DNA from: an uncultured Ruminococcus sp.
GTDB taxonomy: Bacteria; Bacillota; Clostridia; Oscillospirales; Acutalibacteraceae
Reading direction: 5' to 3'
DNA: 64,000 nt
Assembly (NCBI GenBank): GCA_902766885.1
Contig: CACXFS010000010.1
Location: 30,127 to 94,126 of the forward strand
Made by a program: the position numbers and the translations under genes. Shown one piece after another: positions 5,007-59,796 of this stretch; positions within the stretch are counted from its first letter, which is position 1; every line of letters begins with the position of its first letter. Under the pieces are notes generated by a model. The model saw only the letters and a list, made by a program, of their open reading frames with translations, was not told the origin of the DNA and ran no database searches.

Positions 5007-5035
5007 TTGACTTTTTTGACACAATAATATATAAT
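5007..5035 (+). promoter_or_regulatory. Promoter of small RNA in module 1
   Basis: TTGACT (5007-5012) and a consensus TATAAT (5030-5035) are separated by exactly 17 bp. No plus-strand gene follows. A short transcribed stretch ends in a strong hairpin at 5095-5130, so this promoter most likely drives a small RNA. Confidence 0.7.
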
Positions 5036-5041
5036 AATGTT

Positions 5042-5135
5042 ACAGGGAAAACCGTCAAAGCGGTTAGCCTCTATGAAAATTGAAAATTATAAAAAATAAT
5101 CGCCTTTCATTCGACCGTCGGGCGATTATTTTTTT
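5042..5135 (+). ncRNA. Candidate antitoxin small RNA of module 1
   Basis: This is a predicted RNA of about 95 nt that starts just after the promoter at 5007-5035 and ends at the shared terminator at 5095-5130. Its 3' half is antisense to the end of the tiny peptide gene on the minus strand. Near its 5' end it contains CGTCAAA (5053-5059). The same sequence appears at 5229-5235 in the leader of the peptide mRNA, which reads the other strand, so the two RNAs are complementary there. It also carries GCGGTTAGCC, shared with the small RNAs at 10.6 and 11.8 kb. The role as antitoxin is inferred from par/Fst-type architecture. Confidence 0.55.
5095..5130. terminator. Shared bidirectional terminator of module 1
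   Basis: A perfect 10 bp stem, AATAATCGCC paired with GGCGATTATT, has an A-tract on its left and a T-tract on its right. It can therefore end transcription from both directions. The stop codon of the minus-strand peptide gene lies in the right arm. Confidence 0.75.
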
Positions 5136-5197
5136 ATGTACTTAACGACCTCTGCAATTGCTACCAATAATACTATAAGTAAAACTGTTTCAGTCAT
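5126..5197 (-). CDS. Tiny hydrophobic peptide, candidate type I toxin (module 1)
   Basis: A 23-codon gene encodes a single membrane helix: it begins MTETVLLIVLLVAIAEVV and ends in a Lys-rich tail. The start is well supported by the strong Shine-Dalgarno GGAGGTGAT, spaced 5 nt from the ATG. The gene has its own promoter (5272-5300), a leader of about 65 nt with an ACGTC/GACGT hairpin just before the Shine-Dalgarno, and a terminator shared with the opposing small RNA. Short hydrophobic peptides with a basic tail opposed by an antisense RNA are typical of type I toxins. It has no Fst or Ldr signature that I recognise, so toxicity is an inference. Confidence 0.6.
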   Translation of the reverse strand: MTETVLLIVLLVAIAEVVKYIKK

Positions 5198-10129: not shown

Positions 10130-10150
10130 AAAGCTGTCCTGTTGTTTTAT
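10110..10150 (+). terminator. Terminator of the C_GCAxxG_C_C-HAD pair
   Basis: The stem AACAGG.CAGCT pairs with AGCTGTCCTGTT and is followed by tgtttt. The left arm lies in the last codons of the HAD gene. Confidence 0.7.
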
Positions 10151-10171
10151 ACTATTATTGCAATAAAAAAG
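10146..10171 (+). pseudogene. Possible 3' remnant of a module-2-type toxin gene
   Basis: TTTATACTATTATTGCAATA followed by an A-run matches the 3' end of the intact peptide gene at 11749-11771 at roughly 24 of 26 positions. The 5' part and start codon are missing. A family F repeat begins exactly after the A-run. An orphan antitoxin-like RNA lies 370 bp downstream in the expected orientation. The sequence is short and AT-rich, so chance similarity is possible. Confidence 0.35.
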
Positions 10172-10475
10172 TCGAGTGCCTCGACACGCAAATCTCCGAA
10201 TTTATAATAGTGCGTGTTGTATAGAAAGGTTTGTTTGCTGAATTAATGTTGATATATTGGTAACGTATAGCCTTTCAGTGTAGGGAACAGTCTTGACTGT
10301 TCCGTGGGTTTACAGCTAACCTATAGGTAATCGGAACGGTCAAGACCGTTCCCTACACTAGTAAAATATACAAAAATCCAAACCTGCGGCAACGCCGCAT
10401 ATAAATTAATTCGGGCATTAAACTTTTGATTTATTCCAACCTATCCACTCGACCTCAATTCCGAATTCCGCATTT
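10171..10475. repeat. Composite intergenic repeat (families F, core, A, G)
   Basis: This is one of the fullest mosaics. Family F palindrome is at 10171-10193. A core with tgcgtgttgtatagaaaggtt and ttgatatattggtaacgta follows. Family A paired palindromes are at 10279-10357. A gcggcaacgccgc mini-hairpin is near 10386, and a family G tail (caattccgaattccgcattt) is near 10456-10475. The core also occurs at 29243-29470, 39457-39643 and 50230-50330. Confidence 0.75.
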
Positions 10476-10537: not shown

Positions 10538-10638
10538 TCAAAAAATAAAAATAGCCGCCCAACCCTGGAAAAGTTAGCGGCTAAATTCTTTCAGTTTTAC
10601 CTTTTAGGGGCTAACCGCTTATACGGTCTGCCTTATCT
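10538..10638 (-). ncRNA. Orphan antitoxin-like small RNA
   Basis: A transcript of about 100 nt is predicted on the minus strand. It runs from a consensus promoter (10645-10672) to a hairpin with stem TAGCCGC/GCGGCTA (10552-10583) and a T-run. Its first roughly 40 nt match those of the small RNA at 11762-11855 almost exactly, including ACCGTATA (10620-10627) and GCGGTTAGCCCC. No intact peptide gene faces it. It could therefore act in trans on the peptide mRNA at 11.65-11.8 kb, or be a relic of a broken module. Confidence 0.55.
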
Positions 10639-10644
10639 GTTTTT

Positions 10645-10672
10645 ATTATATCAAATTTTCAAAAATTGTCAA
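10645..10672 (-). promoter_or_regulatory. Promoter of the orphan small RNA
   Basis: On the minus strand, TTGACA (10667-10672) and TATAAT (10645-10650), both perfect consensus, are spaced 16 bp apart. The -35 to +45 region is nearly identical to that of the small RNA in module 2. Confidence 0.75.
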
Positions 10673-10680
10673 ATCAGCGG

Positions 10681-11469
10681 TTACTCAACTTCGCTAACGG
10701 AAATTTTTTCGTACTCGTAACCGTTTAATTTGAGCGTATCGCCCTCAAGCGAATACTCGTACTCGTCTGTCATTTCATCTCCCATTGAATAGGTTGCTTT
10801 AATCTTCGAATTTTCTGCCGTATAAGCGGCGTAGTTGAACATGGTGTTGTACTGGTTGTGATACATTATTCCGCTTCCGTCAAAGTAAAAAGTTTCCTCG
10901 TCCTCCGACTTCCACGCACCAAGCAAATCTTCGTCAATTTTTACGTTTTCAACGCTCGGAACGCAGTCAAATCCATCGAGCCTCTGCATAGAAGTTGTTG
11001 AGCCGTCCTCGTTTTTGGTGAGCGTAATTGTATTCTTATCGTCCGAGAGCTTGTAGGTGTACTCGCCGTTTAGTCCGAAAATCATCTGAGTTGTAAAGGT
11101 GTTTTTGCCGTTCTTCTGCTCTACCTCGTATTTACCGAAGTATCCTGCATTATCAATGACCATAGCCGCTCTGCCCTCGCCGTTAAAGCTGAATACAAAA
11201 CTACCGTACTGAGAGCCCTCGCCCTCGGTGATTTTCCACGCACCCGTAAAATCATCACCTTTTTCGGCGTATTTCGGGAACGGAAGATTTGTGTTTTCTG
11301 CATTACCGTTTGACGAGGTGCTCGGCTGAGTAGTTTCCTGCACTGTAGTTACAGGGGCAGTTGTCTGATGTTCGGACGATGACGAGCCGTTGTCGCCGCA
11401 GCCCGAAAAAGCCGCCGCTGTTACGGCTACAAGTATAAGCGAAATGATTTTTGCGTATATTTTTTTCAT
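10681..11469 (-). CDS. Lipoprotein with two beta-rich repeat domains, function unknown
   Basis: This is a secreted, lipid-anchored protein of 262 residues. The open frame extends to 11535, but the ATG at 11467-11469 is preferred. It follows GGGAGA and gives a proper lipoprotein signal peptide, MKKIYAKIISLILVAVTAAA, ending at lipobox FSGC. A Ser/Thr/Gln-rich linker follows. Two related beta-rich units then begin FTGAWKITEGEG and LLGAWKSEDEE, each about 75 residues, with aromatic residues at similar places. This resembles lipocalin-like or META-like solute-interacting domains. I do not recognise a specific family, and the neighbours give no pathway. Confidence 0.75.
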   Translation of the reverse strand: MKKIYAKIISLILVAVTAAAFSGCGDNGSSSSEHQTTAPVTTVQETTQPSTSSNGNAENTNLPFPKYAEKGDDFTGAWKITEGEGSQYGSFVFSFNGEGRAAMVIDNAGYFGKYEVEQKNGKNTFTTQMIFGLNGEYTYKLSDDKNTITLTKNEDGSTTSMQRLDGFDCVPSVENVKIDEDLLGAWKSEDEETFYFDGSGIMYHNQYNTMFNYAAYTAENSKIKATYSMGDEMTDEYEYSLEGDTLKLNGYEYEKISVSEVE

Positions 11470-11615
11470 TATAATTATCTCCCATATAAAAAGTATAACT
11501 AAACATAATGCGTAATAAACGCATGTGTGTTTCACAGCAACTTTCTATCTTAAAAAAGTGTTCTGCAACAACAATTTTATATTTTATACTCTGCGTTGTC
11601 AATATACAAAAATAA

Positions 11616-11644
11616 TTGATTTTCCTGTTGAATTATGATATGAT
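11616..11644 (+). promoter_or_regulatory. Promoter of the tiny peptide gene in module 2
   Basis: TTGATT (11616-11621) and TATGAT (11639-11644) are spaced 17 bp apart. The predicted mRNA starts near 11650 and leaves a leader of about 60 nt before the peptide ATG. Confidence 0.6.
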
Positions 11645-11709
11645 TTTTGAAAATAAGGCAACCTATACGGTAGGCGGTTAAGTCTTGTCCCTGCAAGGGG
11701 GTGTTGCTG

Positions 11710-11775
11710 ATGGAATACATAATAATAGCTTTTGCAATTATTCTTTATACTGTCATTGCAATAAAAAAGAAATAA
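11710..11775 (+). CDS. Tiny hydrophobic peptide, candidate type I toxin (module 2)
   Basis: A 21-residue membrane peptide begins MEYIIIAFAIILYTVIAI and ends in three lysines. AAGGGGGTG precedes the ATG, and a CCCTGCAAGGGG hairpin in the leader overlaps that Shine-Dalgarno, so translation may be controlled by structure. The stop codon lies in the stem of a bidirectional terminator shared with a convergent small RNA. The leader carries TATACGGT (11664-11671), which is complementary to ACCGTATA near the 5' end of the small RNA. It has the same layout as module 1 but a different peptide. Toxicity is inferred from architecture only. Confidence 0.62.
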   Translation: MEYIIIAFAIILYTVIAIKKK

Positions 11776-11855
11776 ACCGCCACTCTCCACAGTAGACGGT
11801 TTATTTTTTAATCTTTCGCTTTGGGGCTAACCGCTTATACGGTCTGCCTTATCTG
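11762..11855 (-). ncRNA. Candidate antitoxin small RNA of module 2
   Basis: An RNA of about 95 nt is predicted on the minus strand. It starts just after the promoter at 11861-11888 and ends in the shared terminator. It overlaps the 3' end of the peptide gene as an antisense RNA. Its 5' part can form a hairpin (GGC..ACCG with CGGT..GCC) whose ACCGTATA segment (11836-11843) can pair 8 of 8 with the peptide mRNA leader. The direct repeat read from opposite strands resembles DRa/DRb of the enterococcal par loci. Confidence 0.58.
11771..11805. terminator. Shared bidirectional terminator of module 2
   Basis: A perfect 9 bp stem, AATAAACCG with CGGTTTATT, is flanked by an A-run on the left and a T-run on the right. 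It includes the peptide stop codon. Confidence 0.75.
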
Positions 11856-11860
11856 TTTTT

Positions 11861-11888
11861 ATTATATCAGATTTACTACAATTGTCAA
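11861..11888 (-). promoter_or_regulatory. Promoter of the small RNA in module 2
   Basis: Perfect consensus TTGACA (11883-11888) and TATAAT (11861-11866) lie on the minus strand with 16 bp spacing. It is stronger by consensus than the facing peptide promoter, as expected for an antitoxin RNA in excess. Confidence 0.75.
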
Positions 11889-11962
11889 GAGGTAGGGACA
11901 ATTCCAAAAATCATAAGTAATACAACCAAATAAAATAATTGAGTAAAATTTATATTTTGTTA

Positions 11963-12015: not shown

Positions 12016-13521
<1,506 letters not shown>

Positions 13522-45255: not shown

Positions 45256-45293
45256 TTTAGCCGAAAATTCGGCTCGCAATATGCAAATACAAG

Positions 45294-45326
45294 TCGGGCT
45301 GACCGTTTTTGGTCAGCCCGATTTTG
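45294..45326 (+). terminator. Terminator after malQ-glgP
   Basis: TCGGGCTGACC pairs with GGTCAGCCCGA around a five-base T loop and is followed by tttgttttt. Confidence 0.9.
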
Positions 45327-45399
45327 TTTTTATTAAACTTGATTAATTAAAATTACAGATTGTAATTTAGCTAAATCATAATTTAGCGTTGGAATTATA

Positions 45400-59550: not shown

Positions 59551-59736
59551 GTGGAAAACAAAATACCCGACAGCGAAAAGCTTGACCGCATCCACGACAA
59601 GAATATGAACGCCTGCTCAGCATATGACTGCACGGGACTTATTCCCTCGGCAATCACGGATGAGAGCGAAGCTGAATCGTATGAACAGCTTTATCCCTAC
59701 CGTGTTCCGACAGCAGACGACAAAAACAAGGAATAA
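59551..59736 (+). CDS. Small hydrophilic protein, unknown function
   Basis: A GTG at 59551, preceded by AGGTGAGAG, opens 61 codons. The protein starts VENKIPDSEKLDRIHDKNM (GTG read as Met), has two Cys in NACSAYDCTGLIP, and ends in an acidic tail with LYPYRVPTADDKNKE. It is hydrophilic and without membrane helix. A strong terminator follows 15 bp later, which supports a real gene. Similar DxxN...CTGL small proteins appear in related genomes as hypothetical proteins, but I cannot name a family. Confidence 0.65.
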   Translation: MENKIPDSEKLDRIHDKNMNACSAYDCTGLIPSAITDESEAESYEQLYPYRVPTADDKNKE

Positions 59737-59751
59737 AACAACAACTTACTA

Positions 59752-59784
59752 ACGCACACCGCAAAATACGGTGTGCGTTTTTAT
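59752..59784 (+). terminator. Terminator after the small protein gene
   Basis: ACGCACACCG pairs with CGGTGTGCGT around a seven-base loop, followed by ttttattt. The stem is a perfect 10 bp. Confidence 0.9.
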
Positions 59785-59796
59785 TTAATATAATAC

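Follow-up and report, generated by a model that had tools for sequence, protein, structure and literature searches.

Layout of the locus

The window, i.e. the whole stretch of 64,000 nucleotides of DNA that was analysed, carries a compact module between a lipoprotein-like gene (10681-11535, minus strand) and guaB (12040-13521, plus strand), both gene names being read from the translations. The features of the module are listed below, where toxin and antitoxin denote presumed functions.

11609-11619, left-hand copy of the 11-nt direct repeat AAAATAATTGA that stands on either side of the unit of gain or loss
11616-11644, plus strand, toxin promoter TTGATT-17-TATGAT from a promoter scan (9/12 consensus)
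11651-11812, plus strand, predicted toxin mRNA of ~162 nt, folded, with ends placed from the promoter and terminator positions
11653-11671, plus strand, 5' element of the toxin leader, ATAAGGCAACC + TATACGGT, nearly a copy of the antitoxin 5' end in the same sense, and a predicted site of pairing
11664-11671, plus strand, copy 1 of the direct repeat TATACGGT (repeat scan)
11690-11701, plus strand, hairpin CCCTGCAAGGGG predicted to mask the Shine-Dalgarno sequence (fold with 4 pairs including one G-U, covering the G-run)
11710-11775, plus strand, presumed toxin gene, an ORF for the 21-residue hydrophobic Lys-tailed peptide MEYIIIAFAIILYTVIAIKKK
11767-11809, bidirectional terminator common to both RNAs, with arms 11767-11779 and 11797-11809 (12/13 complementary)
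11767-11858, minus strand, predicted antitoxin RNA of ~92 nt, with ends placed from the promoter and a covariance model match
11825-11848, minus strand, antitoxin 5' hairpin GGC-A-GACCG-loop-CGGTT-A-GCC (fold and alignment)
11836-11843, minus strand, copy 2 of the direct repeat, reading TATACGGT on the plus strand and ACCGTATA in the antitoxin RNA (repeat scan)
11861-11888, minus strand, antitoxin promoter TTGACA-16-TATAAT (12/12 consensus, with TG before the -10)
11932-11942, right copy of the 11-nt direct repeat, the other bound of the unit

An earlier note on this DNA had described a gene for a 21-residue hydrophobic, Lys-tailed peptide with its own promoter, a facing short RNA with a perfect TTGACA/TATAAT promoter, one terminator shared by both RNAs and a hairpin over the ribosome site of the peptide gene. 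Each of these was located at the positions listed. The stop codon of the toxin gene sits in the 5' arm of the terminator stem. A simple terminator scan left this terminator out, its loop being longer than the scan allows. Within 11600-11900, TATACGGT is the sole direct-repeat family reported, and by our estimate (~0.1) an 8-nt Watson-Crick match is not, alone, a rare event for two RNAs as large as these.

Distribution of the antitoxin RNA

A DNA search of 98 relatives gave clear homologues within the genus and a single one in another family. A covariance model, here called R1, was built from 16 antitoxin-side sequences; its E-values are per genome and only roughly calibrated, as a shortened calibration was used. 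At the module in the window R1 matches 11769-11866 with an E-value of 2.1e-17, this sequence being part of the training set. At an E-value of 0.01 R1 matched 85 of the 161 genomes searched in the genus and 82 of the 295 searched in the order; at 0.001 it matched 61 of 291 in the class and 13 of 299 in the phylum, with the own genome counted in each case. We read 138 matches, including 9 training sequences, as well as a second set of 57 matches from class, phylum and plasmid records, including none. This recurrence of the module in many genomes is more than chance would give.

Exact matches to the core were found in 16 stretches of named records, of which 15 are labelled metagenome-assembled and one 'uncultured'; all belong to Ruminococcaceae, Ruminococcus, Oscillospiraceae, Clostridia or Clostridiales. 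The plasmid records gave four R1 matches in Monoglobus pectinilyticus and two in the pure-culture Oscillospiraceae bacterium MB08-C2-2. The four in Monoglobus pectinilyticus are tandem antitoxin matches, three of them with a peptide by the rule given below and none in the gene table, which is incomplete.

No Rfam family reached its threshold at the module; the matches that did score above threshold lay outside the modules, to tRNAs and riboswitches. Sub-threshold Rfam matches to MIR856, mir and ncr1175 were taken as chance. A search of phage DNA gave 18 records, the best with an E-value of 0.3, and none was credible. Searches of the open-licence PMC literature listed no title or abstract opening on this antitoxin RNA family or on same-sense 5' ends, and the group of such pairs in Clostridia is large and apparently undescribed.

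The gene pair in relatives

Opposite each R1 match we looked for an ORF of 16-45 codons, hydrophobic, preceded by a start signal and with its stop 3-6 nt inside the terminator. Such an ORF faces 115 of the 138 matches (51/58 and 64/80) and 36 of the 57 in the second set. At random positions the rule was passed by 82 of 20,000 (0.4%), and at random positions already holding a stop at that offset by 507 of 20,000 (2.5%); the latter control matters, since the stop is partly built into R1. Some of the 23 matches that fail do so through a frameshift, a missing start signal or a contig end, which is not true absence. Hydrophobicity of the peptides across relatives is part of the selection rule. A Lys/Arg tail, with at least two K or R in the last five residues, was found in 103 of 105 distinct peptides.

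The promoters were scored against shuffled sequence. For the antitoxin, a perfect -35 TTGACA, which lies outside R1, is present in 104 of 111 modules (shuffled 0/111) and in 40 of 57 in the second set (shuffled 2/1140). For the toxin, whose start was placed by homology with the 5' end of the antitoxin, 48 of 82 modules have a -10 scoring 5/6 or better at the homologous position (shuffled 11/82), and the -35 is perfect in 21 of the 82 (shuffled 0/82). A strong antitoxin promoter opposite a weaker toxin promoter fits type I logic. The gene for an antisense or complementary RNA with its own promoter that a type I system calls for is thus found, judged from sequence. Furthermore, a C-run upstream of the Shine-Dalgarno sequence was found by pattern match in 98 of 112 modules. 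The module is real, conserved and widespread.

In two loci (L069 and L081) the toxin gene has one extra A in an A-run, so that the frame is shifted at its end and the peptide is longer (IKKEINRH...); the run is possibly a spot of slippage or loss of function. At 1858-1924 of locus L064 a leader with the conserved 5' element stands near a contig end with no toxin ORF after it.

RNA structure and matched 5' ends

For the structure we aligned 118 matches from 100 sources (115 distinct) to R1. Paired cells amount to 94.4%, against 38-51% with the partner slid, and changes on both sides occur in 17 of 18 pairs; as the alignment was fitted to R1, these figures lean towards the model. Among the 115 distinct sequences the terminator helix is 98.0% paired, with both-side changes at all 11 pairs. 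The antitoxin 5' hairpin is 87.2% paired, one weak pair being broken in 49 sequences, and its 5' arm prefers its own 3' arm in cis (1 of 20,000 permutations, 78 loci).

Near its presumed start the toxin leader carries the opening sequence of the antitoxin RNA in the same sense: GATAAGGCRAACC in the group of the window, and CAAGGAGTTATCC, CAAGGGAAGCC, AGGCACTGCC, GTAAGGCTTAC and others elsewhere. In the DNA the matched ends make up an inverted repeat, with one arm at the promoter-proximal end of each gene. The similarity of cognate 5' ends was compared with that of non-cognate ones for 90 loci (111 and then 90 of the 115 being used), for 31 of the 57 in the second set, for 28 mutually dissimilar representatives, and for 57 of the 90 with permutation only within clusters of similar antitoxins. 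The values were 18.39 against 12.58, 18.29 against 12.50, 17.75 against 12.15 and 18.14 against 16.03, respectively, with 0 of 20,000 permutations in every case. The own antitoxin ranks first for just 15 of the 90 leaders. Module-specific complementarity of the 5' segments was not detected in the antisense control (1416/20000; second set 1845/20000). A palindrome may also account for the shared 5' ends: the antitoxin element proved no more self-complementary than shuffles (mean z -0.16, with 9 of 78 below -1), yet the leader element and the antitoxin element pair better with their own partner (19/20000). That both RNAs of one module start alike, in the same sense, is newly observed here.

The 8-nt direct repeat of the earlier note, through which the two RNAs were to pair near their 5' ends, is present at both places in the window, but it is not a general rule among relatives. 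TATACGGT is found in 14 of 112 leaders and CCGTATA in two of the antitoxins of those 14, which means that the pair is rare and the exact repeat local. The shorter core CGGU/ACCG is common by loose patterns (104/112 and 79/112, respectively).

Predicted pairing of leader and antitoxin

The best predicted duplex in the window joins the leader GGCAACC-TATACGGT (11657-11671) to the antitoxin ACCGTATA-AGC-GGTT-A-GCC, and the whole leader element is predicted to form with the antitoxin a duplex of -23.3 to -25.8 kcal/mol (duplexfold). Over 80 loci the leader element with the antitoxin hairpin reaches -18.05 kcal/mol against -12.86 kcal/mol for other windows of the same leaders, a comparison uncontrolled for composition; against shuffled leaders the mean z is -0.99, with 38 of 80 below -1. 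The advantage in duplex energy of the element's own antitoxin over those of other modules is small (461/20000, 80 loci). With leaders of 95 nt the cognate duplex energy gave p 0.024 (49 and then 45 of 51 loci). In a separate comparison, shuffling the antitoxin worsened the duplex energies only a little (mean z -0.42). Two anchored tests of cognate pairing on 37 of the 51 loci were negative (12588/20000 and 6695/20000). When the components were taken apart, the leader with the antitoxin element (Xm with Xs) paired better with its own partner (19/20000); the component tests on 78 loci were mixed overall, with 19735/20000 for the mRNA cis hairpin, 17304/20000 for the post-X mRNA with Xs and 8984/20000 with Ps, and 1281/20000 for Xm with Ps. 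ACGGU, CGGUU and CGGUUAGCC are nearly invariant, and covariation is therefore unable to settle the 5' pairing.

We are fairly confident that the locus in the window is a type I toxin-antitoxin module in which the antitoxin would contact the terminator or the 5' hairpins of the mRNA and then the leader; the small RNA probably silences the peptide. The weaker promoter would give an mRNA of ~160 nt for a 21-residue membrane peptide with a single span, the ribosome site being masked by a local hairpin. The near-consensus promoter on the other strand would give an antitoxin RNA of ~90 nt, presumably in excess. Full complementarity of the two predicted RNAs is confined to the shared terminator (~45 nt), and first contact may be made there or between the 5' hairpins. 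The antitoxin 5' hairpin could then pair with the leader, ACCG with ACGGU and CGGUUAGCC with the GGC-AACC element, and the paired mRNA would be left untranslated and then degraded. The antitoxin 5' domain resembles the leader of the toxin, as if copied from it, and bears a complementary ACCG arm. In this model the likely path is contact at the terminator together with 5' pairing, by which the ribosome site would stay closed. The sequence shows the two genes with their promoters, the covariation in terminator and hairpin and the matched 5' ends, from which transcription, the path of pairing, toxicity and neutralisation are inferred.

The main rival to the 5' pairing path is decay through the terminator alone, as in txpA/RatA, where the 3' duplex would recruit RNase III and the antitoxin 5' hairpin would merely stabilise the small RNA; the locus would remain a toxin-antitoxin pair, with a 5' domain that takes no part in pairing. 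The terminator is, from its position, the sole long perfect complementarity, and the 5' hairpin is cognate-specific in cis while the tests of pairing in trans were mostly weak or negative. Precedent exists too: in PMC4147584 the txpA/RatA RNAs overlap by ~75 nt and act mainly through mRNA decay. Terminator-only action leaves unexplained, however, the module-specific 5' sequence common to both RNAs and the CGGT..GGCGGT-like pattern found in 94 of 112 leaders, and the overlap predicted here (~45 nt) is shorter than the 100-140 bp that PMC6562991 gives for the pairs of B. subtilis. We consider it unlikely.

The peptides

The peptide of the window found no family in our searches, with no match to Hol_Tox even at an E-value of 10, so that it stands below the gathering cut-off of PF16935. 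Peptides at the same place in relatives were taken as a set of 86, i.e. 85 of the 105 distinct ones and that of the third module described below, with near-duplicates and one truncated frame removed by hand. Hol_Tox matches 15 of these 86 at an E-value of 0.01. The peptide of one relative scores 32 bits against the cut-off of 23.3, and a 31-residue intermediate that shares the MEYI start scores 23.2 against the same cut-off. Similarity to PepG1 is weak (8/86 at an E-value of 0.1, best 0.00062). A direct search of genomes with Hol_Tox gave 6 of 98 and missed one genome (G247) whose Hol_Tox-like peptides surfaced via the antitoxin. In a codon test restricted to ten genes of 21 residues, pN/pS was 0.63 in frame, with values of 0.40 and 0.92 for the other two frames, and column shuffles gave a value as low as the in-frame one in 80 of 200 cases. 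Clear purifying selection on the frame, which the earlier note had set as a check through synonymous bias, is not seen in this test.

BsrG, a known type I toxin according to PMC6562991, itself matches Hol_Tox PF16935. This bears on the reading of the product as a non-toxic membrane peptide, a signal or an envelope modulator, under ordinary antisense control. Such a reading would sit well with the high variability of the peptides (mean column identity 24%) and with the lack of a family match for the window peptide. The same layout, however, carries Hol_Tox peptides in relatives, and that family includes a known toxin; in addition, an antitoxin persists at 10547-10672 without an intact toxin. 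We hold this alternative to be distinctly improbable.

Further copies and gain or loss of the module

The 31-nt 5' region of the antitoxin occurs twice in the window against 0.00 expected. The second occurrence belongs to what we call module 1, and the window holds a third module as well:

10547-10672, minus strand, module 1, apparently an orphan antitoxin with a perfect promoter (R1 E-value 1.3e-14, training sequence)
5030-5132, plus strand, module 3 antitoxin RNA, -35 of 5/6 (R1 E-value 1.3e-8, outside the training set)
5126-5197, minus strand, module 3 toxin gene, an ORF for the peptide MTETVLLIVLLVAIAEVVKYIKK

Module 3 is complete (5030-5197). The 31-nt region of module 1 is identical to that of the module at 11616-11888, and no intact toxin was found opposite this antitoxin gene. 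A toxin-like 3' fragment, TTTATACTATTATTGCAATAAAAAAG, lies at ~10146-10171, some 400 nt from the orphan antitoxin, which suggests that the two are a broken older module. Between them, at 10277-10362, is an imperfect palindrome, TGTAGGGAACAGTC...GACCGTTCCCTACA, which resembles a miniature inverted-repeat element; short parts of it are 90-93% identical to sequence near guaB in two relatives (L293 and L297). Two weak R1 matches on the minus strand, at 45258-45337 (E-value 0.013) and 59688-59795 (E-value 0.044), are possibly copies that have decayed or diverged. A more distantly related module, with the peptide MDYIAIIVIFTFFIVITIKKK, is found on another contig of this genome.

In the relative with the most similar guaB start (92%; G030) the two flanking genes stand side by side with no module between them, and the empty site holds one copy of the repeat, AAAATAATTG, with 10 of 11 nt. 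A flanking direct repeat as long was found in 2 of 1000 shuffles. By this comparison the module is a unit of ~323 bp that was either gained by insertion or lost by deletion between the repeats. R1 found no antitoxin at the guaB loci of 23 relatives (of 37 with a guaB match). Flanking repeats of at least 11 nt were found at 21 of 114 loci against 1.27 expected, two values of 100 being artefact-like and others due to tandem copies; no conclusion is drawn from this count.

A discrete 323-bp unit with a flanking direct repeat, absent in a close relative, and many copies per genome with tandem arrays would also be expected of a selfish or miniature element, whose strong promoter and terminator serve its own spread and whose peptide is incidental. 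We give this very little credence, as the ORF recurs across the class together with its start signal and the place of its stop, and as there is no long inverted repeat at the ends within 11600-11900, a stretch smaller than the whole unit. As toxin-antitoxin modules, these loci would come and go as small units that may protect neighbouring DNA, or may just persist by addiction.

Comparison with known systems

The par locus of pAD1 and its chromosomal homologues (RNA I/RNA II, Fst) has convergent promoters, an overlap of the RNAs limited to a shared bidirectional terminator and a Shine-Dalgarno sequence masked by a 5' stem-loop, as described in PMC7472228 and PMC4147584. All three recur here, the overlap and the masking as predictions. 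As the earlier note had remarked, the peptide lacks the Fst motif: by eye it has no Pro, Gly or Trp, and hence neither the conserved tryptophan nor the PXXXG signature of Fst. In par, DNA direct repeats make the two RNAs complementary, whereas here the two 5' ends copy each other in the same sense; the TATACGGT repeat pair of the window is present in 2 of 112 modules. True membership of par/Fst, despite convergent promoters, bidirectional terminator and masked Shine-Dalgarno sequence as in par, is contradicted by two failed defining features, the signature and the complementary direct repeats, and has next to no probability. The type I reading of the earlier note is supported in part, by the convergent units, the Lys-tailed hydrophobic peptide, the shared terminator, the masked ribosome site and the conservation of the unit in many genomes; its repeat-based complementarity finds no support in the form given.

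With bsrG/SR4 (Rfam RF01412) several relatives' peptides share the Hol_Tox toxin class. In the BsrG leader, too, a similar C-run and G-run cover the ribosome site, which is masked according to PMC6562991. Weak matches to the BsrG model on the toxin strand were seen in 6 of 11 loci and in the window, all below gathering (window 17.2 bits against a gathering score of 55), and R1 has no match to the bsrG region. txpA/RatA and sprG/sprF likewise combine a small membrane toxin with a convergent antitoxin RNA overlapping at the 3' end; the window peptide matches none of these. The pairs of the CD0977.1/RCd11 type in Clostridioides difficile are described as sharing a long complementary region, and by this description they differ from the module.

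Most likely, the module is a type I toxin-antitoxin variant with a par-like layout, a non-Fst toxin, an antitoxin unmatched at threshold in Rfam and same-sense 5' ends. A wider proposal, which we put forward tentatively, is a large, unnamed type I superfamily of Clostridia in which the antitoxin would have arisen by inverted duplication of the leader and would act by strand exchange or as a decoy, with swappable toxins under one RNA switch. If true, the toxin gene would be interchangeable (21-residue peptides, Hol_Tox, others) under one conserved switch. Since the conserved antitoxin RNA can be searched for, it exposes many candidate membrane-toxin genes in Clostridia that are too small for routine annotation, and short unclassified peptides become linked to Hol_Tox toxins via a common RNA switch. 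Through the matched 5' ends, moreover, both the origin of RNA antitoxins and their specificity can be put to a direct test.

Other arrangements

Head-to-tail tandem arrays were seen in two loci, with four antitoxin matches in L268 (2618-3785) and five, one of them weak, in L227 (1501-3072); three matches of each array have the identical peptide MEYVYIIIFMIVFITLIESIKK. At 1744-1803 of locus L063 a second, truncated antitoxin copy abuts sequence resembling a riboswitch fragment, where Rfam gave no match. FMN riboswitches adjoin the modules in L071 (1694-1815) and L072 (1330-1450).
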